From positions 1 to 64,000 of IMG/VR virus record IMGVR_UViG_3300032753_000003: a DNA stretch of 64,000 nucleotides; one strand, given 5' to 3'. The notes under the pieces were generated by a model that had not been told where the DNA came from, searched no databases, and saw nothing but the letters and a program-made list of their open reading frames with translations. The position numbers and the translations under genes were made by a program. Positions 28,069 to 64,000 of this stretch are shown here, one piece after another. The DNA comes from a virus. How positions within the stretch are numbered: the first letter of the stretch is position 1; every line of letters begins with the position of its first letter.

Positions 28069-28332
28069 TCAAATAAATCTCATGGAGAATGCTGTATAAT
28101 CTTCTTTGTTCTTAAAATAGAATACACCGAGGTATCCGTTATAATACCTGTCTCGACGTTTAGACCATTTGCTCACACAATTTGATTTGCACCAGTTGTA
28201 CATTTCATTAATTTTATTTTCCACATCACTGTCATGGTAATGGTCCAAATATTTTAGAACGCAAACTGGGTGCCACTTTGCTGCTATATTGGGATTGCAA
28301 ACACGTTCCAATCCAAATTTTTGAACTATCAC
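28069..28332 (-). CDS. FxLxW-family protein, 87 aa
   Basis: Last gene of the first array. It has MYNWCKSNCVSKW, then YLGVFYFKNKEDYTAFSMRF, a variant of the family ending (F-x-M-R-F). The only start in frame is GTG at 28332, five bases after the stop of the amber-interrupted gene upstream. Function unknown. Confidence 0.6.
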   Translation of the reverse strand: MIVQKFGLERVCNPNIAAKWHPVCVLKYLDHYHDSDVENKINEMYNWCKSNCVSKWSKRRDRYYNGYLGVFYFKNKEDYTAFSMRFI

Positions 28333-28336
28333 GACA

Positions 28337-28597
28337 TTATCCGTGATTCAAATACATAGACAGTGCATGGCGAGTTTTTCCTCGTCTAAAAATAATTGCC
28401 GCACAAAGATTGCTATTTTTGTCAAAACAAGGGTGCCAATACCAATCTATGTGTTGCATACCAACATTGGCTTCTAGCCACGGCTTCTAAAAATTGTTGA
28501 GATTGTCAGATGATGCATCATGCCAATCTAGATGAAGCGTATAACCGCTCATACACTTCCACCAAAGTCGATTGAATCGTTTGATCAACCAATTCAT
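28337..28597 (-). pseudogene. FxLxW-family gene interrupted by one in-frame TAG
   Basis: Reading from ATG 28597: MNWLIKRFNRLWWKCMSG..., 36 codons, then TAG (28487-28489), then 49 sense codons in the same frame, KPWLEANVGMQHIDWYW through AAIIFRRGKTRHALSMYL, to TAA. The part after the TAG holds the family middle (PWLEAN, compare EPWLIEN at 31451 and EPWLNAN at 62216) and end. No other lesion is visible. A CUA-anticodon tRNA is encoded at 46529, so read-through is possible. Confidence 0.65.
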
Positions 28598-28626
28598 AAT
28601 TTTAACTCCGTGCTAACAGACTATTG

Positions 28627-28842
28627 CTATTTCCATCTCAAACAAAATTCCATCATGCGTTCGGACGTGTCAAATGCCCATCCCTAGCTGGTATTGTCGT
28701 TAAAAGCTTGCCAATGTTTTCTTCCAAAAGTACGGGTGCACCACTCGTCGATTTCATCAACTTCTGCTATCGATATTTTGGTATCATTTGTTGCACGCCA
28801 TTTACATTTTCGATTGTGTTTTCTACGTTGATGACTGTTCAT
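28627..28842 (-). pseudogene. FxLxW-family gene interrupted by one in-frame TAG
   Basis: From ATG 28842, overlapping the previous stop as ATGA: basic start MNSHQRRKHNRKCKW, the family motif EWCTRTFGRKHWQAF, TAG at 28684-28686, then GWAFDTSERMMEFCLRWK and a final TAG. Both halves of the family signature are present on either side of the amber codon and the coupling to the upstream gene is intact. Confidence 0.68.
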
Positions 28843-29099
28843 GACCACGTCAACTTGAATAGCACAGCTTCGTCCGCAGATTCAAATACGCCTCGTCCAG
28901 GGAACAATCTCCATCCGTGCTGTATGTTAGACCGAATCCAATCATCTATTCCCCTTAGACTTATGTTATTGTCAAACGCAACCACAGTCCACCCTTCACT
29001 TACCAACTGAGCAATTCTTATCTCTGCGACAATCTCTTTGTCAATTTCTTCTCGCAGCATATCTGCTAACTGCTGAGCTAAATCGTTTTCTGTGTTCAT
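28839..29099 (-). CDS. FxLxW-family protein, 86 aa
   Basis: Starts at the ATG overlapping the previous stop (ATGA). The N-terminal half is helical and acidic (ADMLREEIDKEIVAEIRI), then DDWIRSNIQHGWRLFPG replaces the usual WC motif, then FESADEAVLFKLTWS. Confidence 0.65.
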   Translation of the reverse strand: MNTENDLAQQLADMLREEIDKEIVAEIRIAQLVSEGWTVVAFDNNISLRGIDDWIRSNIQHGWRLFPGRGVFESADEAVLFKLTWS

Positions 29100-29344
29100 G
29101 ACCAAGTCAACATGAATTCAGTATAATGTTCTGGCTTTTTAAAATAAACTCGTAAGGTCCATTCACGACCAGGTAGATCACTTAAATATGCCCATCCCCA
29201 CTGGTCGAAACCGCCGTAGCGATCATGTGCCCATAGTATAGAATCCCTGCTAATATCATGGGATGCAAACACACAATTGCCTATAAATTTGTAGCCTTTG
29301 TGCATGCGATCAAAAAAATCAGAATCGGATATATTGCCACTCAT
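29096..29344 (-). CDS. FxLxW-family protein, 82 aa
   Basis: ATGA-coupled start. ILWAHDRYGGFDQWGWAY stands at the WC position and LRVYFKKPEHYTEFMLTWS is the family end. Rich in Tyr, Trp and Asp. Confidence 0.65.
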   Translation of the reverse strand: MSGNISDSDFFDRMHKGYKFIGNCVFASHDISRDSILWAHDRYGGFDQWGWAYLSDLPGREWTLRVYFKKPEHYTEFMLTWS

Positions 29345-29562
29345 GCCCATGTCAACCTGAATAATACTGCATCTTGGTCTAACTCAAATCTACCAAACCC
29401 CATACCAATCCAGTACTTGCCCTGGCAGTTTTCATAGCACCAGTCAAACATGATATTTCTAGTTTCATTTCGTAATACTTGCCCGCCATCAACAGGATCT
29501 TTCACCCAGACATAATGACCGGATTCGTCATCATTTAACATAAATCTTTCTAGATCTATCAT
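29341..29562 (-). CDS. FxLxW-family protein, 73 aa
   Basis: ATGA-coupled start. It has the canonical core IMFDWCYENCQGKYWIG, then GRFELDQDAVLFRLTWA. Confidence 0.68.
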   Translation of the reverse strand: MIDLERFMLNDDESGHYVWVKDPVDGGQVLRNETRNIMFDWCYENCQGKYWIGMGFGRFELDQDAVLFRLTWA

Positions 29563-29783
29563 AACCACTCTAACTTGAATTTAACAACATCACTGCTATA
29601 TTCGCATGCCAATATCAATATGTGCTTGCCAGAACCACGCACGGCACAAGACCCACTGTCAGCAATTATATTCCATCCATAGTCCAAATTGTGCTCACAC
29701 CATTCCAGCAGTTGCTTAATACTAGCATCTACATTTGTGATGTCAAGCTCATTGTATATGTTGATCTTATGATCTCTCGGCAT
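29559..29783 (-). CDS. FxLxW-family protein, 74 aa
   Basis: Start ATG shares one base with the previous stop (TAATG). Core LLEWCEHNLDYGWNIIAD; the end ACEYSSDVVKFKLEWL carries an inserted strand (GSGKHILIL). Confidence 0.66.
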   Translation of the reverse strand: MPRDHKINIYNELDITNVDASIKQLLEWCEHNLDYGWNIIADSGSCAVRGSGKHILILACEYSSDVVKFKLEWL

Positions 29784-30046
29784 TATGTCCATCTCAATCT
29801 AAATGACAGCACATCTCGTTCGTCGCTGAGTGAGATAAACAACATTGGATCACCGCTGTTGAATCTAAATTCACAGTCGTGGTTGCCCATACAGTTTTCG
29901 TTTAACCAAGCGGTTACATCTTCAACTGTGGCGATCGAATTGGGTCTATAACTTATTCGCCATGCAGGATCTCTAGGTTCAGTCCACTGATCGATAGCAG
30001 ACATGTATTGTGGTTTGCCGTCGTCATAGTAGATGTACACTGTCAT
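29783..30046 (-). CDS. FxLxW-family protein, 87 aa
   Basis: ATGA-coupled start, MTVYIYYDDGKPQYMS. Core DVTAWLNENCMGNHDCEFRF, a WL-x-x-N-C variant, and end SLSDERDVLSFRLRWT. Confidence 0.66.
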   Translation of the reverse strand: MTVYIYYDDGKPQYMSAIDQWTEPRDPAWRISYRPNSIATVEDVTAWLNENCMGNHDCEFRFNSGDPMLFISLSDERDVLSFRLRWT

Positions 30047-30282
30047 CCAAACCTCAACTTGAATTGCGTCATGTCCTCTGAGTTCTTAAAATAGATATGA
30101 GTAGGGTCAAACGACCAACGTGGAAACGTTGTGCTATTGTAGTGTAAGTGTCCTAACTTGGTAACTGCTCTATATGCACCCGGGTGGTCGGTATTAAATT
30201 TAGCGAAATTGTCAATACAATATCGCAGCATCTCCATAGTTACATTTACATGTATCGTGTGCATTACTTGTATCGTGTGCAT
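30043..30282 (-). CDS. FxLxW-family protein, 79 aa, uncertain start
   Basis: Core MLRYCIDNFAKFNTDH and end IYFKNSEDMTQFKLRFG. The ATG that overlaps the previous stop opens only a nine-codon reading frame (MTKNIEIYK) that closes with TAATG at this start, so translation may reinitiate there. Two in-frame copies of an 18-base repeat give MHTIQVMHTIHV at the N-terminus; a start at M7 or M16 is also possible. Confidence 0.6.
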   Translation of the reverse strand: MHTIQVMHTIHVNVTMEMLRYCIDNFAKFNTDHPGAYRAVTKLGHLHYNSTTFPRWSFDPTHIYFKNSEDMTQFKLRFG

Positions 30283-30290
30283 TACTTGTA
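30251..30290 (-). repeat. 18-bp tandem repeat, two copies plus five bases
   Basis: TGTATCGTGTGCATTACT occurs at 30251-30268 and 30269-30286. It covers the start region of the gene ending at 30043 and duplicates its TAATG start site, giving two equivalent starts six codons apart. Confidence 0.9.
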
Positions 30291-30307
30291 TATCTCAATA
30301 TTTTTTG

Positions 30308-30580
30308 TCATCCAAACCTCAACGCAAATTCTATCTGCTGTTCTATAGTCCTAAACCACCACCTAGCATCGGCGCCCACCGTCCCTGGTGCCATAAAATC
30401 TACCATAGGGATCCAACCCTGTGTCTCGCACCATTCTCGCTTTTGATAGCGATCTAGACAAAGTACCTGGTATTCCTGGCTTGAACCTAATCCCTCTGTA
30501 CAGGGCTCTGGCACCTTGACTCCCATACCGTGAGCAGTGAAGATTACGTCTTTGGTAGCTGGATCTCGCAATGTTATCAT
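30308..30580 (-). CDS. FxLxW-family protein, 90 aa
   Basis: TGATG-coupled start. Core KREWCETQGWIPMVDFM, then ARWWFRTIEQQIEFALRFG. The N-terminal half (TLRDPATKDVIFTAHGMG, LCLDRY) looks like an added strand-rich domain. Confidence 0.66.
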   Translation of the reverse strand: MITLRDPATKDVIFTAHGMGVKVPEPCTEGLGSSQEYQVLCLDRYQKREWCETQGWIPMVDFMAPGTVGADARWWFRTIEQQIEFALRFG

Positions 30581-31044
30581 CACAGCCACCTCAGCTTGAA
30601 CAACATAGCATGTTCAGGTGTAAATGGCCAAGTGATATGGTTTTCGGCTAACCATTGTTCAACTGAATCAGTAATGTTGTTGTTATTGATCCACCACGCT
30701 AGACGGCCATCCGACCAAATAATTGCAGGTCCGTCGGCCCGATGGTGTTGACCATCGCAATACCATTCTTGTCGGCCGTTTTGGTAGATAACAGCAGGCC
30801 CGTCTGTGCGATGCAGCTGACCATTGCGATACCATCGCTGATCGACATTTGGATATATCATAGCAGGTCCGTCCTCGCGGTGCAGCTTGCCATCGTGATA
30901 CCATCCCTGATATCCATCTGGATATATGATCGCAGGTCCATCCTCGCGATGCAGCTGACCTGCACTATTGCGCCACTGACCCTCGGCGTTTTGCCACCTG
31001 TTGATGCCATTTTCTCCCACAACAAAGGTTGACTCGTCTGTCAT
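30580..31044 (-). CDS. LHREDGPA-repeat protein with FxLxW C-terminus, 154 aa
   Basis: ATGA-coupled start at 31044. It contains four MORN/YwqK-like repeats of about 22 residues (GQLHREDGPAIIYPDG, GKLHREDGPAMIYPN, GQLHRTDGPAVIYQNG, GQHHRADGPAIIWSDG) followed by VEQWLAENHITWPF and the family end TPEHAMLFKLRWL. It is thus a fusion of two modules. 115 bases of the repeat region are almost identical to DNA in the gene at 48690-49673. LHREDGPA repeats are known from bacteria, phages and giant viruses, without assigned function. Confidence 0.75.
   Translation of the reverse strand: MTDESTFVVGENGINRWQNAEGQWRNSAGQLHREDGPAIIYPDGYQGWYHDGKLHREDGPAMIYPNVDQRWYRNGQLHRTDGPAVIYQNGRQEWYCDGQHHRADGPAIIWSDGRLAWWINNNNITDSVEQWLAENHITWPFTPEHAMLFKLRWL
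30862..30976 (-). repeat. 115-bp inverted duplicate of 49256-49370
   Basis: The reverse complement of this segment matches 49256-49370 at 114 of 115 positions (one A/G difference). It encodes the first LHREDGPA repeats in both genes; identity stops abruptly on both sides. Confidence 0.9.
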
Positions 31045-31454
31045 AGCCACCTCAGCGTGAACAACATACAATCGTGATCATTTTTGAACCAAAGTATACC
31101 GTTATCAAATACGTATCCAGAGTTGCCAAACTGCTGATTACACCATGCGATACAATCCATATCTTGATCAAATGCGGTAAAATTACATGGCACATATGGA
31201 TATTTTGCTTGGAGAAAGTCATTAACAGTTTGACTCTTCTTGCGATTGTTCAAACGCAGAAACACTCGGTAATGCATCGCAGTCATCTTGATGCGCGGAT
31301 AGTACCTATACCTCATGAATGTAGATCCGCTAGGACCGATCATTGACTGTACGCCAATTATCGAATTGGCTATGATAGTGGGCATAACTTGCCTGATTAC
31401 AGGAATCAATACCGAGTTTGGAGGTATAGTACCAGATAATAAACCTGTTGTCAT
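31041..31454 (-). CDS. FxLxW-family protein with long N-terminal domain, 137 aa
   Basis: ATGA-coupled start at 31454. The N-terminal half contains YRVFLRLNNRKKSQTVNDFL, shared with the truncated gene at the right edge of the window (YKVFVRLNNRRKTQGIEDFI), so the two are direct paralogues. Then CIAWCNQQFGNSGYVFD and ILWFKNDHDCMLFTLRWL. Confidence 0.72.
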   Translation of the reverse strand: MTTGLLSGTIPPNSVLIPVIRQVMPTIIANSIIGVQSMIGPSGSTFMRYRYYPRIKMTAMHYRVFLRLNNRKKSQTVNDFLQAKYPYVPCNFTAFDQDMDCIAWCNQQFGNSGYVFDNGILWFKNDHDCMLFTLRWL

Positions 31455-31687
31455 GCCCATCTCAATTTAAACAGCACAGCATGGTCATGACTTTCAAACT
31501 CCCCTACTGTTGTAACTTTGGAGTTGGGATTTAGATCATTATACCACACTCGCCAATTGGGACCTATCAATCCAATTGGAAGATATCTGCCCATGATATC
31601 CAACTGCACCGGTCCTCCCATATTCTCAATTAACCAAGGTTCCATATGGTCGAGATGCGTGAACGGTATAACAACTTTATAAGTCAT
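31451..31687 (-). CDS. FxLxW-family protein, 78 aa
   Basis: ATGA-coupled start. MEPWLIENMGGPVQLD takes the place of the WC motif; the end is TTVGEFESHDHAVLFKLRWA. Confidence 0.68.
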   Translation of the reverse strand: MTYKVVIPFTHLDHMEPWLIENMGGPVQLDIMGRYLPIGLIGPNWRVWYNDLNPNSKVTTVGEFESHDHAVLFKLRWA

Positions 31688-31902
31688 AGCCATGTCAAGA
31701 TGAACTCAGTTTTGCAATTCGCGTGTCTGAATACGAATCCAGCTACAAGTAGATCCCATTCTCCATTTGGGTTAGTATTAGAGATAGCAGCGCCCCACTT
31801 CTCATGGCACCACAGGCGCATACGCATTAATGAGTGATAATCATCAAATGCACCTTGCACTAGATGTAATTCCTCGCCCCGATATGTGATTGTTGATCCC
31901 AT
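31684..31902 (-). CDS. FxLxW-family protein, 72 aa
   Basis: Core LMRMRLWCHEKWGAAISN, end AGFVFRHANCKTEFILTWL. The start ATG follows the previous stop by one base. Confidence 0.68.
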   Translation of the reverse strand: MGSTITYRGEELHLVQGAFDDYHSLMRMRLWCHEKWGAAISNTNPNGEWDLLVAGFVFRHANCKTEFILTWL

Positions 31903-31903
31903 A

Positions 31904-32098
31904 TTATACCCAAGCTAATTTAAACATCATAGCAAATTCGTAATCATAAAATTCAAAACACAATCTATTGCTCCAATAGAACCAATAGAAGTCAACGGTA
32001 TGAACAAGACCGCGGTCTTCGCACCAACAAGTTGCATCTACAGCCAATTGGTCTGTGATATTGCTTCTACCTCTGTGTTCAAACTTCACAACAACCAT
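31904..32098 (-). CDS. FxLxW-family protein, 64 aa
   Basis: Core VDATCWCEDRGLVHTVDFYW and end CFEFYDYEFAMMFKLAWV. First intact member of the array, downstream of the amber-interrupted copy at 32126-32287. Confidence 0.67.
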   Translation of the reverse strand: MVVVKFEHRGRSNITDQLAVDATCWCEDRGLVHTVDFYWFYWSNRLCFEFYDYEFAMMFKLAWV

Positions 32099-32125
32099 GT
32101 AAAATTCAATGCAACTACAATTCCT

Positions 32126-32287
32126 CTATGCCCATCTCATAATAAACGCGATACGATCCTCGTCAGTCTCAAAGATAAAATATGTTCCAACTCTTGTACA
32201 AGGTATACCCTCATCCTAACACCACTGTCGTATTTCTGCTAGTTGATAAACTAGATTGGGTGCATGGTATCTATAGTTGATATTCAA
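32126..32287 (-). pseudogene. FxLxW-family gene interrupted by one in-frame TAG
   Basis: From a possible TTG start at 32287: NINYRYHAPNLVYQL, AEIRQWC, TAG (32216-32218), DEGIPCTRVGTYFIFET, DEDRIAFIMRWA, TAG. The amber falls directly after the WC of the family core (compare WCEDRG in the next gene). It is the first member behind the -10 element at 32307. No ATG start is visible. The 317 bases 32099-32415 otherwise hold only this copy, the promoter and two hairpins. Confidence 0.6.
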
Positions 32288-32382: not shown

Positions 32383-32415
32383 CCCACATTGTTAATATAT
32401 ACGGAGGAAATAATT

Positions 32416-33246
32416 ATGTCAATGATATTGTGTGCATATGGGTGTGGAAATGTTGCAATATATTTCAATCGGCAACAAGTAGGTAGATGTTCATTTAGGC
32501 CTAGCGTTTGTGAAGGTATACGCGCCCGCGCCAAACAATCTATCAAAAATAGATACGCATCAAAAACTGAAGAAGAGAAACAGTTAATTAAAAATCGCAG
32601 GTTAGCAACAAATATTAAAAAATATGGTGTTGCTAATGTATCTTCAGTTGAATCAGTTAAACTTAAAAAAGAACAAACTTTTTTAGACAAGTTTGGTACT
32701 ACTAACCCGTCCCAAAACACAGATATACGCGCAAAAATTAAAGATAAGATGCCTGTAGTTCTTAAGAAACGTAAAAAAACTAATTTAGATAGATATGGAG
32801 TTGAGCACTACTCTAGTACAGAGGAATTTAAATCTAGACGTAAAATAACCTGGACCAAAAGATACGGAGCAGATAATCCAAGTAAAAATAATAATATCAA
32901 AGACAAAATTATGAAAGGACAGGATCATAGAAGAACTAACAAGATAATTATTTTAAATGGACAAATTGTTAGAGTACAAGGTTATGAAGATCAAGTTATA
33001 CGAGATTTAATAAAATCTGGAATTTCAGAATCTGAGATAATATGTGATAGGGATAGGATACCAAAGATATCATATACCATAGATAATAAAGTTAGAACCT
33101 ATTACCCTGATATATATCTTCCTAGATATAACATTTTGATAGAAGTTAAATCGTTATACACTTGGAAGAAATATAAGGCTATTAATATTGCTAAAATTAG
33201 TTCTGCTAAACATGCAGGATATAATGTACGTGTGGCTATACGTTAG
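32416..33246 (+). CDS. PD-(D/E)XK-type homing endonuclease
   Basis: 276 residues; start at 32416 after GGAGGA. N-terminal Cys-containing segment (LCAYGCGN...GRCSF), then three or four repeated DNA-binding motifs of the type KKYGVANVSS, KFGTTNPSQN, RYGVEHYSS and RYGADNPSK, and a C-terminal PD-(D/E)XK nuclease (YYPDIYLPRYNILIEVKS). The KYGxxNPSQ repeats also occur in the ligase-intein endonuclease at 34189. It is encoded opposite to, and overlaps by four bases, the 3' end of the ligase C-part, so it seems to be inserted next to its presumed target. Confidence 0.85.
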   Translation: MSMILCAYGCGNVAIYFNRQQVGRCSFRPSVCEGIRARAKQSIKNRYASKTEEEKQLIKNRRLATNIKKYGVANVSSVESVKLKKEQTFLDKFGTTNPSQNTDIRAKIKDKMPVVLKKRKKTNLDRYGVEHYSSTEEFKSRRKITWTKRYGADNPSKNNNIKDKIMKGQDHRRTNKIIILNGQIVRVQGYEDQVIRDLIKSGISESEIICDRDRIPKISYTIDNKVRTYYPDIYLPRYNILIEVKSLYTWKKYKAINIAKISSAKHAGYNVRVAIR

Positions 33247-34187
33247 ATCTTTTGTCCCGGGTCAAATCCTCTAAATGCAACAAATACAGGAAACCTCAAA
33301 CTATACGTATCAGAGTTCTGATTCTGTGTGAGACAGTCTCCCTTAATTTCAACAATTTGGCCAATTACCTGATCTTGGTTGTTCCAGATCTGATCACGCA
33401 GCTCTTCAGTATAACCGCCACCTACAGTAACTTCAATGATCTTACCTTGATCTTCTCCTCGGCAGATTAGACCACCTAATGTATTTTTGAACTTACTCTC
33501 TGGTTTGCCAGGTTCAACTCCGATAACTTCTAAATCTACAGAATATACCGGTTTAATTTTCAACCAGGCATCTGTACGTTTAGTCTTATATGTGGCATTA
33601 GGGTCCTTGATCATAATTCCTTCTAGTCCTTGGCTTAACGTGTCGTTGTTGAATTCCTTGAACTGCTTCTGACCCTCAGGAGTCTCTAGATCCACAGCCA
33701 TCTTGGGAATAACATACACGCGCTCGCCACAATGCTCTGCCAGCAGCGGCACAAATCCAGTCAACACTTCATGCCGCTGAGTCTGAGTCAGCAGGCATTC
33801 ACCTGCAACAAAGTCCTTGAGCGGGACAATATCAAACAGTGCCAGCTTGGCATCGGAGGTGTCAACATCCTCTTTGCGATTCAGCTGCTTCATCAAAGAT
33901 TGGAAACTGCGGCTGACCATTTCGCCGTCAAACACCACGCTCTGTTTGAGCTTGGGTAGCAGCTTGGCCATTGATGCCGCAATAGTCTCAAAACGATCGT
34001 TCTGCCTACCATCGCGACTGTATTGAGTAACAGTGTTGTTCTCAACATCGAGGATGGTGATCATTCGGCAGTTGTGGACGAGCACATTGTTTGCAAAGAA
34101 ATTACTGACATCATCTACCTCCAGATCGTACCGATCGAGGTTGACATCTAACTCTTCAATCCTGGATATTGCCGCTATGTTTTTCAT
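33243..34187 (-). CDS. 30: DNA ligase C-terminal part with C-intein (split intein)
   Basis: 314 residues. Residues 1-39 are a C-terminal split intein (MKNIAAISRIEEL, RYDLEVDDVSNFFANNVLVHN with the terminal Asn), ending at the splice site HN/C. The C-extein begins CRMITILDV, i.e. directly after ligase motif I, and carries motif III (VVFDGEMVS), IIIa (LALFDIVPL), IV (EGIMIKDPN), V (DAWLKIKP) and the OB-fold region. Start taken at 34187, just behind the endonuclease stop. It needs the N-part at 35135-35968 to form a working ATP-dependent ligase of about 446 residues (T4 gp30: 487). Confidence 0.92.
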   Translation of the reverse strand: MKNIAAISRIEELDVNLDRYDLEVDDVSNFFANNVLVHNCRMITILDVENNTVTQYSRDGRQNDRFETIAASMAKLLPKLKQSVVFDGEMVSRSFQSLMKQLNRKEDVDTSDAKLALFDIVPLKDFVAGECLLTQTQRHEVLTGFVPLLAEHCGERVYVIPKMAVDLETPEGQKQFKEFNNDTLSQGLEGIMIKDPNATYKTKRTDAWLKIKPVYSVDLEVIGVEPGKPESKFKNTLGGLICRGEDQGKIIEVTVGGGYTEELRDQIWNNQDQVIGQIVEIKGDCLTQNQNSDTYSLRFPVFVAFRGFDPGQKI

Positions 34188-34188
34188 G

Positions 34189-35070
34189 TTACTCTGTCTT
34201 TCTGGTAAAGGTATTATATAACATCTTGGTGATGTCGTCAAACGATTTCTTTATATCATTCTCCCATAACACAATTACCTTTACACCAAATGATTCTATA
34301 TGAGATTGTCGATGACTATCAATGTCCCATATTTCTTGGGCGGTAGTTAGGCCAATGAACAGATGTATCACATCGCTAGCATAATATATGTTAGGGTTTG
34401 CGTGCCAATAATCCCCGTATATTTCAATCACTGTATTGTAAGCGTCTATCCAAATATCAACTATAGGCGAATATATGCGATTGTTAGCCGCAACAGGTTT
34501 AGGAAATAGGTTAGGCTTCTCGTTTTCATGTTCGATACCAACCGAGGTCAACCAGTTTGATATCTTTCTATGAGGTACAGACAGAGTTGTGTTGCCGCGA
34601 TACCTCGGAAGATATCTGGCATTGGTCACACCATAATTTATAAACATAGTGTCTTTAATTTTAGAAATAATTTCGGGTCTCTGGGATGGGTTATCGACAC
34701 CATATCGTTCTCGGCTGACCGATAGCTTTCTATCTTTAACATGTTGCGACTGCGATACATTGTCCACACCATACGTGTTTCTCACTGTTTCTTTATATTT
34801 CTGCCTTGTTTCCGGGGATCTTGCAGCATCCTTTATCGATAAAGTCTTTACGCCTCTGATTCTACACCAATCACGTAACCAGTCGCCGCTGATTTTCTGA
34901 CCAGCCCATTGTATGCTAGTTGTCTGCAAGCCATAAATGCTTCGACGCTCTATCATCAACCATTGTATCAGTTCTTTTTCAAATGGTTCCAGCTTTTTTT
35001 GGGCTTTCATAGTCCTGCATTCATGTGTGACACTGATGTTTGATTTCCGACAATAGATGCATTCTGTCAT
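34189..35070 (-). CDS. Vsr-like homing endonuclease between the ligase intein halves
   Basis: 293 residues from ATG 35070 (AGAGG upstream). A TTG start at 35163 inside the N-part is possible but less likely. N-terminal zinc finger (CIYCRKSNISVTHEC), repeats NTYGVDNVSQS, RYGVDNPSQR and NYGVTNARYL, then the nuclease core YSPIVDIWIDAYNTVIEIYGDYWHANP with the EDxHD-like IEIYGDYWH. Vsr-like enzymes in this position are known from fractured genes with split inteins in environmental phages. It lies between the N- and C-intein genes on the same strand, so all three are probably one transcript. Confidence 0.88.
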   Translation of the reverse strand: MTECIYCRKSNISVTHECRTMKAQKKLEPFEKELIQWLMIERRSIYGLQTTSIQWAGQKISGDWLRDWCRIRGVKTLSIKDAARSPETRQKYKETVRNTYGVDNVSQSQHVKDRKLSVSRERYGVDNPSQRPEIISKIKDTMFINYGVTNARYLPRYRGNTTLSVPHRKISNWLTSVGIEHENEKPNLFPKPVAANNRIYSPIVDIWIDAYNTVIEIYGDYWHANPNIYYASDVIHLFIGLTTAQEIWDIDSHRQSHIESFGVKVIVLWENDIKKSFDDITKMLYNTFTRKTE

Positions 35071-35134
35071 TGGCAACCTCTTGTAATTGACAAGAGTATT
35101 TATGCTAGATTCGAAACTAGACGGCGTATATCCA

Positions 35135-35968
35135 TCATGTATCTTGCAACAGTTTATCGCCAATCATCAATAAATCAACTCGTCTCCAACATTTTAATAG
35201 GGGTAACCAAACCAGATGATTTCCAGTCAAAGGTGGCAGCATATTCCCATTTTCAAGCGTTATTCTGTACCATTTAACCGATGTGTCGTTGATATCAGAA
35301 CCGTTCTTTGCCCAATTAAGTATCTTATTGTATTCTATTTTGCCGGTAGATGGATTAAATGATTTGATCCTACCTTCTATGCGGTTTTCAACTACTTCAG
35401 CGATAGTCACACGTCGACCGTCTTCAAACTCAATGGTCCAGCTTGCTGATAAACAGCCGTCCAGCTTGGGATCCAGCAGTTTGATACCAGACAACTTCTT
35501 GGGATGGTCCTCACCATTCTTGGCCAACTGGCAGCTGAATACAGGGATAATGTAATCAACCGCGCCAACCTTCTCGAGAATCTTGTTGATGGTTGCTTCA
35601 GTGACACCGCACTTGAGATCCTTGAGTAGAATTCTACGATACCAACTGTTCCAATCCTTGACTGAACTTGCGTCAGCAGCAGCACGCAGCACATCGCGGG
35701 CACTGTTACCAGTAAGCTCGCGATGCTGTAGCTTGTGAGCAATGTCCTTGAACTTGGTCCAATTCATAGTGGATTTGAAGTTGGGATCGTCAGCGCCTTC
35801 GATCAGCGGAACCTTCTTGACTCCAAATGTAACGAGAGCATCATAGGCCATCTTGGCGCCTTCAAAGAACTCTGTACAGCCTGCATCCCAGGCGGCACGG
35901 ATAATACTCTCCTTGTCCAAACGGCCGCTGGTAGATTCAAGTTTGGCAATGATGTCTGCGGGGGTCAT
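35135..35968 (-). CDS. 30: DNA ligase N-terminal part with N-intein (split intein)
   Basis: 277 residues. Residues 1-171 are the N-terminal domain of a T4-type ligase ending in the active-site motif I LLDPKLDG (catalytic Lys168). From Cys172 on, an N-intein of 106 residues follows: CLSASWTIEFEDGRR (block A) and LTGNHLVWLPLLKCW (block B-like with the conserved His). The extein break is therefore directly after KLDG, the most conserved point of the enzyme, as is usual for inteins. The N-part alone lacks catalysis, so trans-splicing is required. Confidence 0.92.
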   Translation of the reverse strand: MTPADIIAKLESTSGRLDKESIIRAAWDAGCTEFFEGAKMAYDALVTFGVKKVPLIEGADDPNFKSTMNWTKFKDIAHKLQHRELTGNSARDVLRAAADASSVKDWNSWYRRILLKDLKCGVTEATINKILEKVGAVDYIIPVFSCQLAKNGEDHPKKLSGIKLLDPKLDGCLSASWTIEFEDGRRVTIAEVVENRIEGRIKSFNPSTGKIEYNKILNWAKNGSDINDTSVKWYRITLENGNMLPPLTGNHLVWLPLLKCWRRVDLLMIGDKLLQDT

Positions 35969-37012: not shown

Positions 37013-37237
37013 TTATTGCCAAACCAACTTGAAGGCAACAAAATCGCTACGCTTTTCAAATCTCACAGTATATTTTCCTAACTTGTAACTGCCTGTACAA
37101 TTGCTATGGCACCAATTCATAGCTTGAGCACGACTATGGTCATCAGAGAAGTTTAAATATTCCACAAACGGCATTTCATGTGTGAGATTTGCATCTTGTA
37201 TAACTTCCAACACAGGACCTAAAATTGAGTATGTCAT
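37013..37237 (-). CDS. FxLxW-family protein, 74 aa, isolated copy
   Basis: TGATG-coupled start. Core AQAMNWCHSNCTGSYKLG, end YTVRFEKRSDFVAFKLVWQ. It lies outside the main array among early genes. Confidence 0.68.
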   Translation of the reverse strand: MTYSILGPVLEVIQDANLTHEMPFVEYLNFSDDHSRAQAMNWCHSNCTGSYKLGKYTVRFEKRSDFVAFKLVWQ

Positions 37238-37494
37238 CAATAAGGGCCCCAGCTGCGATCTGCTGCAATCTCTTCAAACGTAAACGATCCGCCTTGGCGA
37301 TCCACTTGTCCTGCCCAGCTAGAATTTGAACTTTTGAGCTTGGCAATCTCGTCCTTGAGAGCTGCAATCTCACGGTTCTTAGCGTCAAATGCCTGAGCGA
37401 TGATTTCAGCAACACGGTCATGACCATACAAGTCGCCGTGGATATCAGCGCGAATATCCTCTTGAATTAACTGTTGGATTTCAAATTGGTCCAT
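37237..37494 (-). CDS. Hypothetical coiled-coil protein, 85 aa
   Basis: MDQFEIQQLIQEDIRADIHG, then a heptad-like helix (AKNREIAALKDEIAKLKSS), then an acidic tail. Upstream AGGAGCAGGTA serves as ribosome site. Function unknown. Confidence 0.58.
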   Translation of the reverse strand: MDQFEIQQLIQEDIRADIHGDLYGHDRVAEIIAQAFDAKNREIAALKDEIAKLKSSNSSWAGQVDRQGGSFTFEEIAADRSWGPY

Positions 37495-42353: not shown

Positions 42354-42770
42354 TCACTCAGGTATAATTCTATACGGAACATTTCCGCCATATTTTGTAA
42401 ACATCAATATCTCTGATTTGGGATATCCATTCTCCACTAGCCATTCCTCAATCCTATCCATTTGATCATCGGGTATTGGTTTGGGAAATCCCCATTTCCA
42501 ACCTCCCGGAGGATCTATCAAGGTGCGAGGACCTTTGCCGTTCCAGGTTAGATTAAACACAGTAGCATCTTGTTGATTACTGAACAACCATGTACTAAAA
42601 TCTCTGTCTGTTACATGCGGCGAACCTGTTAAGGCTGGTCGCCAAGTTATACCACTGTTGTCTATGCCAAACTGATCTATACACCATCCCATGATGTCTC
42701 GATGATGTTCAAGCTCGTACCACCTGCTGATGGTTACACGATAGGGGAATTGTTCATCTAACTTAGCCAT
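42354..42770 (-). CDS. FxLxW-family protein with C-terminal extension, 138 aa
   Basis: Core RDIMGWCIDQFGIDNSG and STWLFSNQQDATVFNLTWNG, then an extra 55 residues (PPGGWKWGFPKPIPDDQ, IEEWLVENGYPKSEILMF) not found in array members. The start follows the previous stop without a gap (TAAATG). Confidence 0.68.
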   Translation of the reverse strand: MAKLDEQFPYRVTISRWYELEHHRDIMGWCIDQFGIDNSGITWRPALTGSPHVTDRDFSTWLFSNQQDATVFNLTWNGKGPRTLIDPPGGWKWGFPKPIPDDQMDRIEEWLVENGYPKSEILMFTKYGGNVPYRIIPE

Positions 42771-46528: not shown

Positions 46529-46604
46529 GCGCCGTTGGGCCAGATGGATGGCCGGTCAACTCTAAATCGACACAAGGTAGGTTCGATACCTACACGGCGC
46601 ACCA
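46529..46604 (+). tRNA. tRNA with CUA anticodon (amber suppressor), CCA encoded
   Basis: Full cloverleaf. Acceptor GCGCCGT/ACGGCGC, 7 of 7 pairs. D stem GGCC/GGCC with loop AGATGGAT. Anticodon stem GTCAA/TCGAC with one A-C mismatch, loop CTCTAAA (46560-46566). T stem GTAGG/CCTAC with loop TTCGATA. Discriminator A, then CCA. With U33 at 46561 the anticodon is CTA (46562-46564), which reads UAG. Class I, five-base variable loop. Charging identity cannot be fixed by eye: A20 recalls arginine tRNAs but C35 is missing. Three genes in the window carry in-frame UAG codons. Confidence 0.9.
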
Positions 46605-61722: not shown

Positions 61723-61980
61723 ATGGGTATTGTGAACACAGAATTTAAGAGGCTAACTGTTAGAGAAGTTATGATATGGGGCACCGTTGTGTTTCCAAAC
61801 GCAACTACATATGACAATTGGCCGCAAGTAGATTGTTCATTTAACTCTTTGTCACAACTGGAAGAAATAGTATCGTGGTGCGATTTGCAGTTTGGACACG
61901 ACAATTGGTTTAGAATTGGTAAAGATTGGTTATTCACAGACACCAACGCTGCAACGTTGTTTAAATTAACATGGACATGA
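61723..61980 (+). CDS. FxLxW-family protein, 85 aa
   Basis: Core LEEIVSWCDLQFGHDNWFRI and end WLFTDTNAATLFKLTWT. First gene of the second array; no Shine-Dalgarno, in line with the leaderless promoter. The third gene of this array is the closest parallel to the EPWL type. Confidence 0.72.
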   Translation: MGIVNTEFKRLTVREVMIWGTVVFPNATTYDNWPQVDCSFNSLSQLEEIVSWCDLQFGHDNWFRIGKDWLFTDTNAATLFKLTWT

Positions 61981-62219
61981 GAAAAGAAAGGATGCTATCT
62001 AATTTCCCCAAGTTAGATGCCAACCGTAATATAACAGCACAATCATTTAAGGATGCTGGATATTATGGTGTAGAATGGGTTAACGTAGATGTTAGAGTAT
62101 TTGTTAATGCTATAACATGGTGCGACGACAACATGAAAGATCGTTATGATTTTGTTGATCGTTATTTTTGGTTTACAACAATAGAAGATGCAACACATTT
62201 TAGGTTAGTGTTCACATGA
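61977..62219 (+). CDS. FxLxW-family protein, 80 aa
   Basis: ATGA-coupled start at 61977, MRKERMLSNFPKLDANRNI. Core NAITWCDDNMKDRYDFVDR, end FTTIEDATHFRLVFT. Confidence 0.7.
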   Translation: MRKERMLSNFPKLDANRNITAQSFKDAGYYGVEWVNVDVRVFVNAITWCDDNMKDRYDFVDRYFWFTTIEDATHFRLVFT

Positions 62220-62476
62220 CTGATATTCCAGAGGTTCTATACGGTATACCAATTACCAACATGAGCGATCAACAGATTTACAAAGCAATGAACTTTTCTA
62301 TGACTGTTGAACCATGGTTGAACGCTAACATTGGCGAGTTTGGTAAGGATTGGTTTGTCGAACTAGATAAAGAATTTAACAGTTTAAGATTGTATTTTAA
62401 AGACAACGAAACAGAAGTATATTTTAAACTGGCTTGGTTACACGGAGCAAAGGAAGATTATGAAGTGGAGAGCTAG
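62216..62476 (+). CDS. FxLxW-family protein, 86 aa
   Basis: ATGA-coupled. VEPWLNANIGEFGKDWF replaces the WC core, as in the gene at 31451; LYFKDNETEVYFKLAWLHGA carries a short extension after the family end. Confidence 0.7.
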   Translation: MTDIPEVLYGIPITNMSDQQIYKAMNFSMTVEPWLNANIGEFGKDWFVELDKEFNSLRLYFKDNETEVYFKLAWLHGAKEDYEVES

Positions 62477-62753
62477 GAAGATTGATAATCGCAATCAAAT
62501 GTTTGGATATATGGATTATCAGGTAATCTGTAGCTTGCCCGAATTTTTTGATGCTAGAGATTGGTGCTGGGAACAATGGGGTCCGGGTATCGAATATGAG
62601 CATTTCCGCAATCATATGAATTATACAGGTCAAACAAAATATTGGGTATGGGATTGCACTAAGTATCAAGGGTCTAGCATAAACAATGGTAAGATATATC
62701 TCAAAGACGAACATGCTATGACATTATTCAAATTGAGATGGACTGAGGATTAA
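62460..62753 (+). CDS. FxLxW-family protein, 97 aa
   Basis: Overlaps the previous gene by 17 bases with AAAGGAAG as ribosome site. Core FDARDWCWEQWGPGIEYEH and end IYLKDEHAMTLFKLRWTED. Confidence 0.7.
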   Translation: MKWRARKIDNRNQMFGYMDYQVICSLPEFFDARDWCWEQWGPGIEYEHFRNHMNYTGQTKYWVWDCTKYQGSSINNGKIYLKDEHAMTLFKLRWTED

Positions 62754-62756
62754 CAA

Positions 62757-63692
62757 ATGGTAGATAGAATTACAAATGATAAACCCAACAGTTTAAACGT
62801 ATGTTGGGAACCTACCAGCACTTGCAATTATTCATGCTGGTATTGTCCAGAAGAACTGCATGACGGAAAATATAGATGGCCCGATTTAGATACAGCACTT
62901 TCATTCTTCAAAAATATTGCAGCTAAACGTGATACTGTACACATTGATATGGTTGGGGGTGAGCCAACGTTGTGGCCGGATATAGATGAGTTTCTAGATA
63001 AGAAGCCAGACAATGTTCATGTGGAAATCAGCAGCAATGGCGCAAGGACTGTTAGATGGTGGCGTCAAAATTTCTCTAAGATGGCAGGTGCTACGTTAAC
63101 CTTCCATCCCAACTCTGCCGATCCTGATCATTTTTATGACTTATGCGAAGCATTACATGATATGGATAAAGAACTGCATGTATTCATAATGGCAGTTAAG
63201 AGCAAGATTGATGTTTGTCAGTCGCTATTCACTAGGCTCAAAGAGTCTGGATTTAAGATCAGTGTAAGTACCAAGATGCTAGATGTACGACATGACGATG
63301 CTAGAATGCCAATAGCTGAAATAAATTCAGATGCAGACATAGTACATTTACTTAAAACCAATAGATTCAATAGACGCAAACACGGCAAATATGTTAGTAA
63401 GCCTAACATATCGTATTTGAACGGCGAAGAATTTGACCATCTGCTAGCACCTTTGCATAAGAAAAATTTATTCAAAGGTTGGACTTGCTGGGCAGGTGTT
63501 ACTAGATTATATATTAAACCAAACGGAGACATATATAGGGGATCTTGTCGCAACGGTGGTGTAATAGGTAATATCAACAACAATTTAGACATATTAGATA
63601 TTAAACCTGAGATTTGCCAACTAGCACAATGTAACTGTATTGATGAGATATTGATAGAAAAACATTATCCACTAAATGAGAATGAATCATGA
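62757..63692 (+). CDS. Radical SAM protein with C-terminal Cys cluster (SPASM/twitch-like)
   Basis: 311 residues. WEPTSTCNYSCWYCPEELHD carries CxxxCxxC; MVGGEPTLWPD is the AdoMet GGE motif. The last 75 residues hold a further Cys set (GWTCWAGVTRL, IYRGSCRNGGVIG, ICQLAQCNCIDE) that could bind an auxiliary cluster, as in SPASM/twitch peptide- or sugar-modifying enzymes. It is placed between FxLxW genes with a three-base gap before and ATGA overlap after, so it is translated with them. Substrate unknown. Confidence 0.85.
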   Translation: MVDRITNDKPNSLNVCWEPTSTCNYSCWYCPEELHDGKYRWPDLDTALSFFKNIAAKRDTVHIDMVGGEPTLWPDIDEFLDKKPDNVHVEISSNGARTVRWWRQNFSKMAGATLTFHPNSADPDHFYDLCEALHDMDKELHVFIMAVKSKIDVCQSLFTRLKESGFKISVSTKMLDVRHDDARMPIAEINSDADIVHLLKTNRFNRRKHGKYVSKPNISYLNGEEFDHLLAPLHKKNLFKGWTCWAGVTRLYIKPNGDIYRGSCRNGGVIGNINNNLDILDIKPEICQLAQCNCIDEILIEKHYPLNENES

Positions 63693-64000
63693 CTGCTGCG
63701 GTTCACCCGGTTATCGTATCAATGATGAATAATATAATATACAATAGTGGAATGATTATTGATCAAAGATCTAGTCATGTAATAGAAAATTGGTATCGCT
63801 GTCGTACCCGTGTAAGTTCAGCAATTTATAAAGTATTTGTGAGGCTCAATAACCGTCGCAAAACACAAGGAATTGAGGATTTTATATCCGCTGAATATCC
63901 AACTTATAAAAGTGAACAGTTTCTTTTGAAATTGTCTGAATGTACAGAATGGTGTAATGACCAATTTGGTAAAAATGGTTATTTTAGAATTGGTAAAGAA
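63689..64000 (+). CDS. FxLxW-family protein, 3'-truncated by window edge
   Basis: ATGA-coupled to the radical SAM gene; 104 codons visible. IYKVFVRLNNRRKTQGIEDF and TEWCNDQFGKNGYFRIGKE align with the 137-residue protein at 31041, so the missing end should be the FxLxW motif. Confidence 0.75.
   Translation, partial: MTAAVHPVIVSMMNNIIYNSGMIIDQRSSHVIENWYRCRTRVSSAIYKVFVRLNNRRKTQGIEDFISAEYPTYKSEQFLLKLSECTEWCNDQFGKNGYFRIGKE

Follow-up and report, generated by a model that had tools for sequence, protein, structure and literature searches.

The window analyzed here (the whole stretch of 64,000 nucleotides, positions 1-64000 of the 199,865-base virus record IMGVR_UViG_3300032753_000003) contains an array of small minus-strand genes whose products belong to a previously undescribed family of phage proteins with a C-terminal domain ending FKLxW. 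The family is highly amplified in some genomes, its genes are commonly translationally coupled, and short motifs of the capsid protein gp23 recur on a subset of its members, one of these, motif A, being conserved at the protein level. It is possible, although short of probable, that these are diversified, phage-only intracellular binding proteins, a subset of which mimics gp23. The record covers part of a large phage that carries tail genes, inteins, and about 37 tRNA genes; a profile search of its 199,865 bases found no full-length gp23, probably because the record is incomplete.

The whole array (28069-32287) comprises 13 intact and three stop-interrupted genes sharing the C-terminal domain (Table 1). 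The original prediction of a tandem minus-strand array of genes with F-x-[LM]-x-[WF] ends holds for 13 consecutive intact ORFs (28069-32098), and such an end, with 0-3 residues after the motif, is found in 18 of the 193 window ORFs of at least 60 codons, whereas each shuffled window has 0-1 and the remainder of the record has 2 among 358 ORFs. That the copies form a single, very diverse family, as had been proposed, is supported by the C-terminal domain that is shared by the members recovered with one profile; profile searches did not divide this domain among several known unrelated families, and some variable parts of the members do derive from known proteins, namely gp23 capsid pieces and DUF6745 repeats. 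The W-C...G core described for most of the copies is present in the majority, but WL or WA is often found instead and the spacing is variable. Among the outlying members proposed, those at 37013, 42354, and 61723-62753 are recovered by the profile, whereas 43230 has the tail motif only. The earlier picture of the array did not include the recurrent capsid motifs, the size that the family reaches, or the three copies interrupted by amber codons.

Table 1. Positions of the family members and of the candidate array promoter
Positions	Strand	Feature	Basis
28069..28332	−	Family member of 87 aa, closing the array	Domain profile 8e-17; ORF call
28337..28597	−	Family-like member, in-frame TAG at 28487-28489	Frame by eye; below profile threshold
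28627..28842	−	Family member, in-frame TAG at 28684-28686, end CLRWK	Profile with one TAG, E 0.0014
28839..29105	−	Family member, N-terminal capsid motif B (LAQQLADMLREEIDKEIV)	Gp23 profile 168-212
29096..29350	−	Family member	Domain profile
29341..29568	−	Family member, sequence behind the structure model	Domain profile 3.7e-17
29559..29792	−	Family member, divergent	E 0.04 with first profile; tail motif, coupling
29783..30046	−	Family member; counterpart L014:7140-7403 in related phage	Profile, comparison with L014
30043..30282	−	Family member	Domain profile
30308..30589	−	Family member, divergent	Tail motif and array position; profile not significant
30580..31071	−	Family tail fused to LHREDGPA repeats	DUF6745 E 2e-9
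31041..31460	−	Family member, N-terminal capsid motif A (SVLIPVIRQVMPTIIANSIIGVQSMIGPSGSTF)	Pfam Gp23 E 3.5e-8
31451..31693	−	Family member	Domain profile
31684..31902	−	Family member	Domain profile
31904..32098	−	Family member, divergent	Tail motif and coupling position
32126..32287	−	Start of the array, TTG-initiated gene with TAG in frame behind WC, end FIMRWA	Profile with one TAG, E 5.7e-5
32394..32422	−	Sigma-70-like promoter TTGACA-17-TATATT (11/12)	About 110 bp upstream of array
37013..37240	−	Lone family member	Domain profile 2.1e-17
42354..42770	−	Family member with C-terminal extension	Domain profile 4e-10
61723..61980	+	Second array, first member	Domain profile 1.7e-14
61971..62219	+	Second array member	Domain profile 3.5e-14
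62216..62476	+	Second array member	Domain profile 5e-10
62460..62753	+	Second array member	Domain profile 1.4e-4
63689..64000	+	Paralogue of 31041-31460, runs on to record position 64060	Domain profile 2.7e-9
Record positions 168876-169139		Further family member	Profile

The DUF6745 match is confined to one member (30580-31071), in which the repeats are N-terminal; these are 62% identical over 98 residues to a longer protein of the same phage (ORF 48690-49673). The paralogue at 63689-64060 is 40% identical to 31041-31460 over 120 residues, and its capsid-like N terminus is no longer recognized by Pfam; a search of viral contigs found no close relatives of 31041-31460, and a subfamily related to 28839-29105 is present in L122, L129, L139, and L182. 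Elsewhere in the window, intein-like insertions, with a homing endonuclease, appear to split the DNA ligase gene (33243-35968), an arrangement shared with L014.

The signature of the domain is WC..N.G...F.F..e.DAxLFKLxW, and the consensus of the members is DEIEEWCKENLGGYDWRVDYDRGGDGGITFYFKDEEDAMLFKLRW. A first profile, from the array copies and the loci of four relatives, recovers members at E-values down to 1e-17, and a wider collection, gathered with degenerate DNA patterns in viral contigs followed by an iterated profile, contains 713 ORFs (659 distinct) in 151 viral loci. Of 69 pattern matches in viral contigs, 66 are genuine members, whereas the 22 matches to this pattern in 257 Gb of genomes from bacteria and archaea include none; the distribution of the family is phage-only. 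At an E-value of 1e-5, this record has 16 copies, a 561-kb phage at least 122, and other records 66, 60, 53, 48, 39, 37, 33 (Phosso), 20, 13, 4, and 3. Among cultured phages, members are present in Sinorhizobium phage Phosso and in PA5oct and MIJ3 of Pseudomonas. The family is amplified in huge gp23-type phages and, with at least 122 copies in a genome and no Pfam or PHROG entry, is possibly among the largest paralogous families of any phage. Amplification of small proteins specific to a lineage is also seen in the huge Bacillus phage G, whose approximately 35 zinc ribbons were described as an "unprecedented" expansion in a comparison of 224 jumbo phages (PMC7824862), but these are unrelated in sequence, and the FKLxW family is both larger and distributed across many phages.

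As originally predicted, the domain belongs to no described family, having no relatives in Pfam, PHROGs, or the PDB. An AlphaFold2 model of moderate quality (29341-29568, 120 sequences; mean pLDDT 72, pTM 0.55) predicts a beta-alpha-beta-beta-alpha arrangement in which the helices would be formed by the WC and the DAxxFKLxW segments. Searches with this model found no match among PDB folds and, among viral folds, only uncharacterized phage proteins with E-values above 0.02.

The overlaps between neighboring genes (ATGA, TAATG, or TGATG) were correctly predicted for most boundaries but are missing at both ends of the array and around 30282-30308; in related phages, such junctions occur in 231 of 360 adjacent member pairs. 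At most junctions the codon of the terminal Trp does, as had been noted, literally form part of the coupling site, but the Trp is equally conserved in members without coupling and is therefore probably kept for the protein. Sites of the kind found upstream of the array number 23 in the record, as compared with 7-11 in shuffled sequences, and the single 11/12 match suggests that the array may be transcribed early by host sigma-70. Among 716 domains scored by the profile, 715 are free of stops. The three stop-interrupted members of this genome, the only ones, are each broken by TAG (28487-28489, 28684-28686, and approximately 32216), and the same genome encodes a well formed tRNA with a CUA anticodon and encoded CCA (46529-46604, plus strand). 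Two of the three also end in TAG, and they are located at the array edges, so that decay is an alternative to amber readthrough. Genome-wide recoding of TAG is unsupported; TAG terminates 28 of 280 long ORFs, and long extensions are not in excess.

The member at 31041-31460 matches the Pfam Gp23 profile (PF07068) with 33.7 bits (cut-off, 24.4), over profile positions 6-46 only, and phrog_138 with an E-value of 3e-7; its motif A aligns weakly (E 0.13-0.15) with T4 gp23 residues 84-133. This motif lies at approximately these residues, in what would be the neighborhood of Gol. Motif B is an EEIDxEI helix and motif C is FYAPYIPL; for the motif B carrier of the array (28839-29105), the Gp23 profile match is below the cut-off (E 0.016-0.03), and the best match is to phrog_138 (0.08). 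In scans of 148 long members drawn from many phages, gp23 is the sole recurring Pfam family (five members, best E 1.3e-8), and the recurring PHROGs families are all gp23-type head families (best E 2e-11). In 44 array-bearing records, the Gp23 profile detects 12 full-length capsid genes and about 20 short one-piece ORFs, as compared with no extra pieces in a sheath control and two weak ones, of a single motif, in a portal control (24 records each); an HMM from the phages' own gp23 genes alone recovers the same carriers. The pieces cluster unevenly along the profile, at positions 3-62 (A), 164-212 (B), and about 270-354 (C), with one ORF at 202-311.

Although they share motif A, B, or C with gp23 (PF07068, phrog_138), the carriers, which are 52-228 residues in length with one gp23 segment each, fall short of a full-length HK97-fold protein (about 400-520 residues). 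They lack the HK97 capsid fold and display only 30-110 residues of gp23 on an unrelated small domain, and many of the same phages separately encode an intact gp23. In seven phages, motif A is located behind the domain, and in others it precedes it; motif B precedes it or, in L279, lies inside it, and motif C is found on either side. Masking the motifs sorts the 31 carriers into 20 groups, but because divergence is fast it is uncertain how many captures were independent. Small ORFs with motif A are family members in four of six cases and those with motif B in six of seven, by text patterns chosen partly after the matches had been seen, whereas the family makes up 5.5% of such ORFs. No domain is recognizable in two carriers of motif A or C and two of motif B, and in most family members a capsid motif is absent. 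Taken singly, the short motifs B and C give weak E-values (1e-5 to above 1). A match of 31041-31460 to a sialyltransferase sequence in the PDB (E 0.002) was judged to be due to chance, and likenesses of some variable parts, seen by eye, to the motif KKIALNSQYG of DNA polymerase, to ribonucleotide reductase, and to the terminase Walker motif GRQMGKT were unconfirmed by profile or genome searches.

In an orthologous group from seven phages, which include one near-identical pair, identity is 47-74% in motif A as compared with 26-53% in the carrier, and synonymous sites are saturated. Because the motif is better conserved than the domain that carries it in spite of this saturation, selection on its protein sequence is well supported by these comparisons; for motifs B and C, selection is suggested by recurrence. 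The carried motif A is 32-58% identical to the gp23s of the array phages, which are mutually mostly 66-95% identical, and is therefore not a recent copy; the conservation and saturated synonymous change likewise rule out recent copying.

We propose that the members would be small intracellular binding proteins, built on the predicted beta-alpha-beta-beta-alpha domain, that have been amplified to tens or more than 100 diverged copies and would be produced together from polycistronic, translationally coupled arrays, each copy most likely binding a different host or rival-phage protein in host takeover or counter-defense. Such an effector or anti-defense reading fits the phage-only distribution, the amplification, and the near-consensus sigma-70 promoter. 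The recurrent subset with conserved gp23 motifs would act as a mimic without being a capsid protein, by occupying a recognizer of gp23, whether an immune protein that senses capsids, EF-Tu (through the Gol site), or the capsid subunits themselves; the case for mimicry is good for motif A and weaker for B and C. PMC3014915 and PMC9712102 describe the activation of bacterial immunity by gp23 and other capsid proteins, in CapRel and, through Gol, in Lit, and describe Gol as the most conserved part of gp23 and as an EF-Tu binder. Since capsid proteins trigger CapRel and Lit, and Gol is conserved and binds EF-Tu, a stand-alone peptide from the Gol region is most simply read as a mimic for some gp23 recognizer. 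In the Gol/Lit system of Escherichia coli e14 and phage T4, Lit is triggered by Gol as a segment within gp23, whereas here motif A, apparently from the gp23 region that holds Gol, stands on another protein.

A more specific version of this mimicry, that huge phages show gp23 motifs on a private amplified scaffold as decoys that blind capsid-sensing immunity, is unlikely on present evidence; if true, it would be pattern mimicry of a form not described in phages. Several immune systems of bacteria respond to capsid proteins, the Gol region being a textbook case. Against mimicry in either version, the known triggers activate immunity, so that faithful mimicry could be harmful to the phage unless it blocked without activating. 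Selected stand-alone capsid motifs give a handle on mimicry against capsid sensing as opposed to weapons against rivals. That they are such weapons, the gp23 pieces co-assembling with the gp23 of T4-type phages that infect the same cell and poisoning their heads (superinfection exclusion), is unlikely, although several regions of gp23 are represented among the pieces, the N-terminal precursor region (in the L211 carrier) among them, and one carried motif A is 61-63% identical to the gp23s of other T4-type phages (cyanophages) but 53% identical to that of its own phage; another carrier reaches 73% identity to RaK2-like capsids. By analogy only, the viruses, folds, and gene layout being different, capsid-derived pieces may act on capsids in truncated Gag restriction, where the truncated capsid-like protein RTL8 is reported to antagonize PEG10 particles. 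The yeast Ty1 p22 protein is a truncated Gag restriction factor. However, the motifs are short (30-55 residues), the precursor region has decayed while motif A was retained in three related carriers (L169 and L113 among them), and the G024 carrier is equally close to its own gp23 and to those of others, which would put its own capsids at risk.

Control of the phage's own capsid, with carriers binding gp23, its chaperone, or EF-Tu and so timing folding and assembly, is decidedly unlikely. The EF-Tu-binding Gol region has been suggested to play a role when gp23 is translated or folded (PMC3014915), and carriers are retained in phages with intact gp23, but the dozens of motif-free copies would be unexplained and normal-sized T4-type phages manage without them. 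It is very unlikely that a fast-recombining family simply picks up functionless fragments of abundant phage genes. The fusion of same-genome DUF6745 repeats to one member is of the kind expected, and the differences between two near-identical arrays are clustered, mainly in short patches, one inside motif A and one, almost wholly synonymous, in another member, which suggests short-patch recombination; such neutral mosaics are nevertheless disfavored by the conservation of motif A over six lineages with saturated synonymous change, the near absence of sheath and portal pieces, and the rarity of stops. One such patch (L156:809-858 versus L157) has about 15 differences in 50 bases, nearly all synonymous, in arrays otherwise about 98% identical. 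Equally improbable is the packaging and injection of members as virion cargo with capsid pieces as targeting tags; such pieces could steer packaging, but they are absent from most members, and the two PA5oct members gp209 and gp210, annotated close to each other, have no mass-spectrometry tag, whereas their neighbors do. Conserved motifs are frequent target sites of homing endonucleases, and this phage is rich in these and in inteins, but the idea that capsid-coding stretches are DNA decoys luring such enzymes is effectively refuted by conservation of protein while nucleotides are saturated and by retained stretches of >100 bases, longer than homing endonuclease sites.

A second, unrelated C-terminal tail (NPALQEAWDNYQVLLRLT-like) is present on three small proteins (L262:293-625, L264:376-1056, and L291:3330-3845); gp23 motif A or B is present on two of them. 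The portal motif VDVGNLP occurs on two small phage proteins (L286:273-497 and L287:223-471), which match Pfam Portal_T4 (E 5e-4 and 3e-3) and also phrog_23805; one of the two genes overlaps that of a family member. Mimicry may thus extend to portal motifs.
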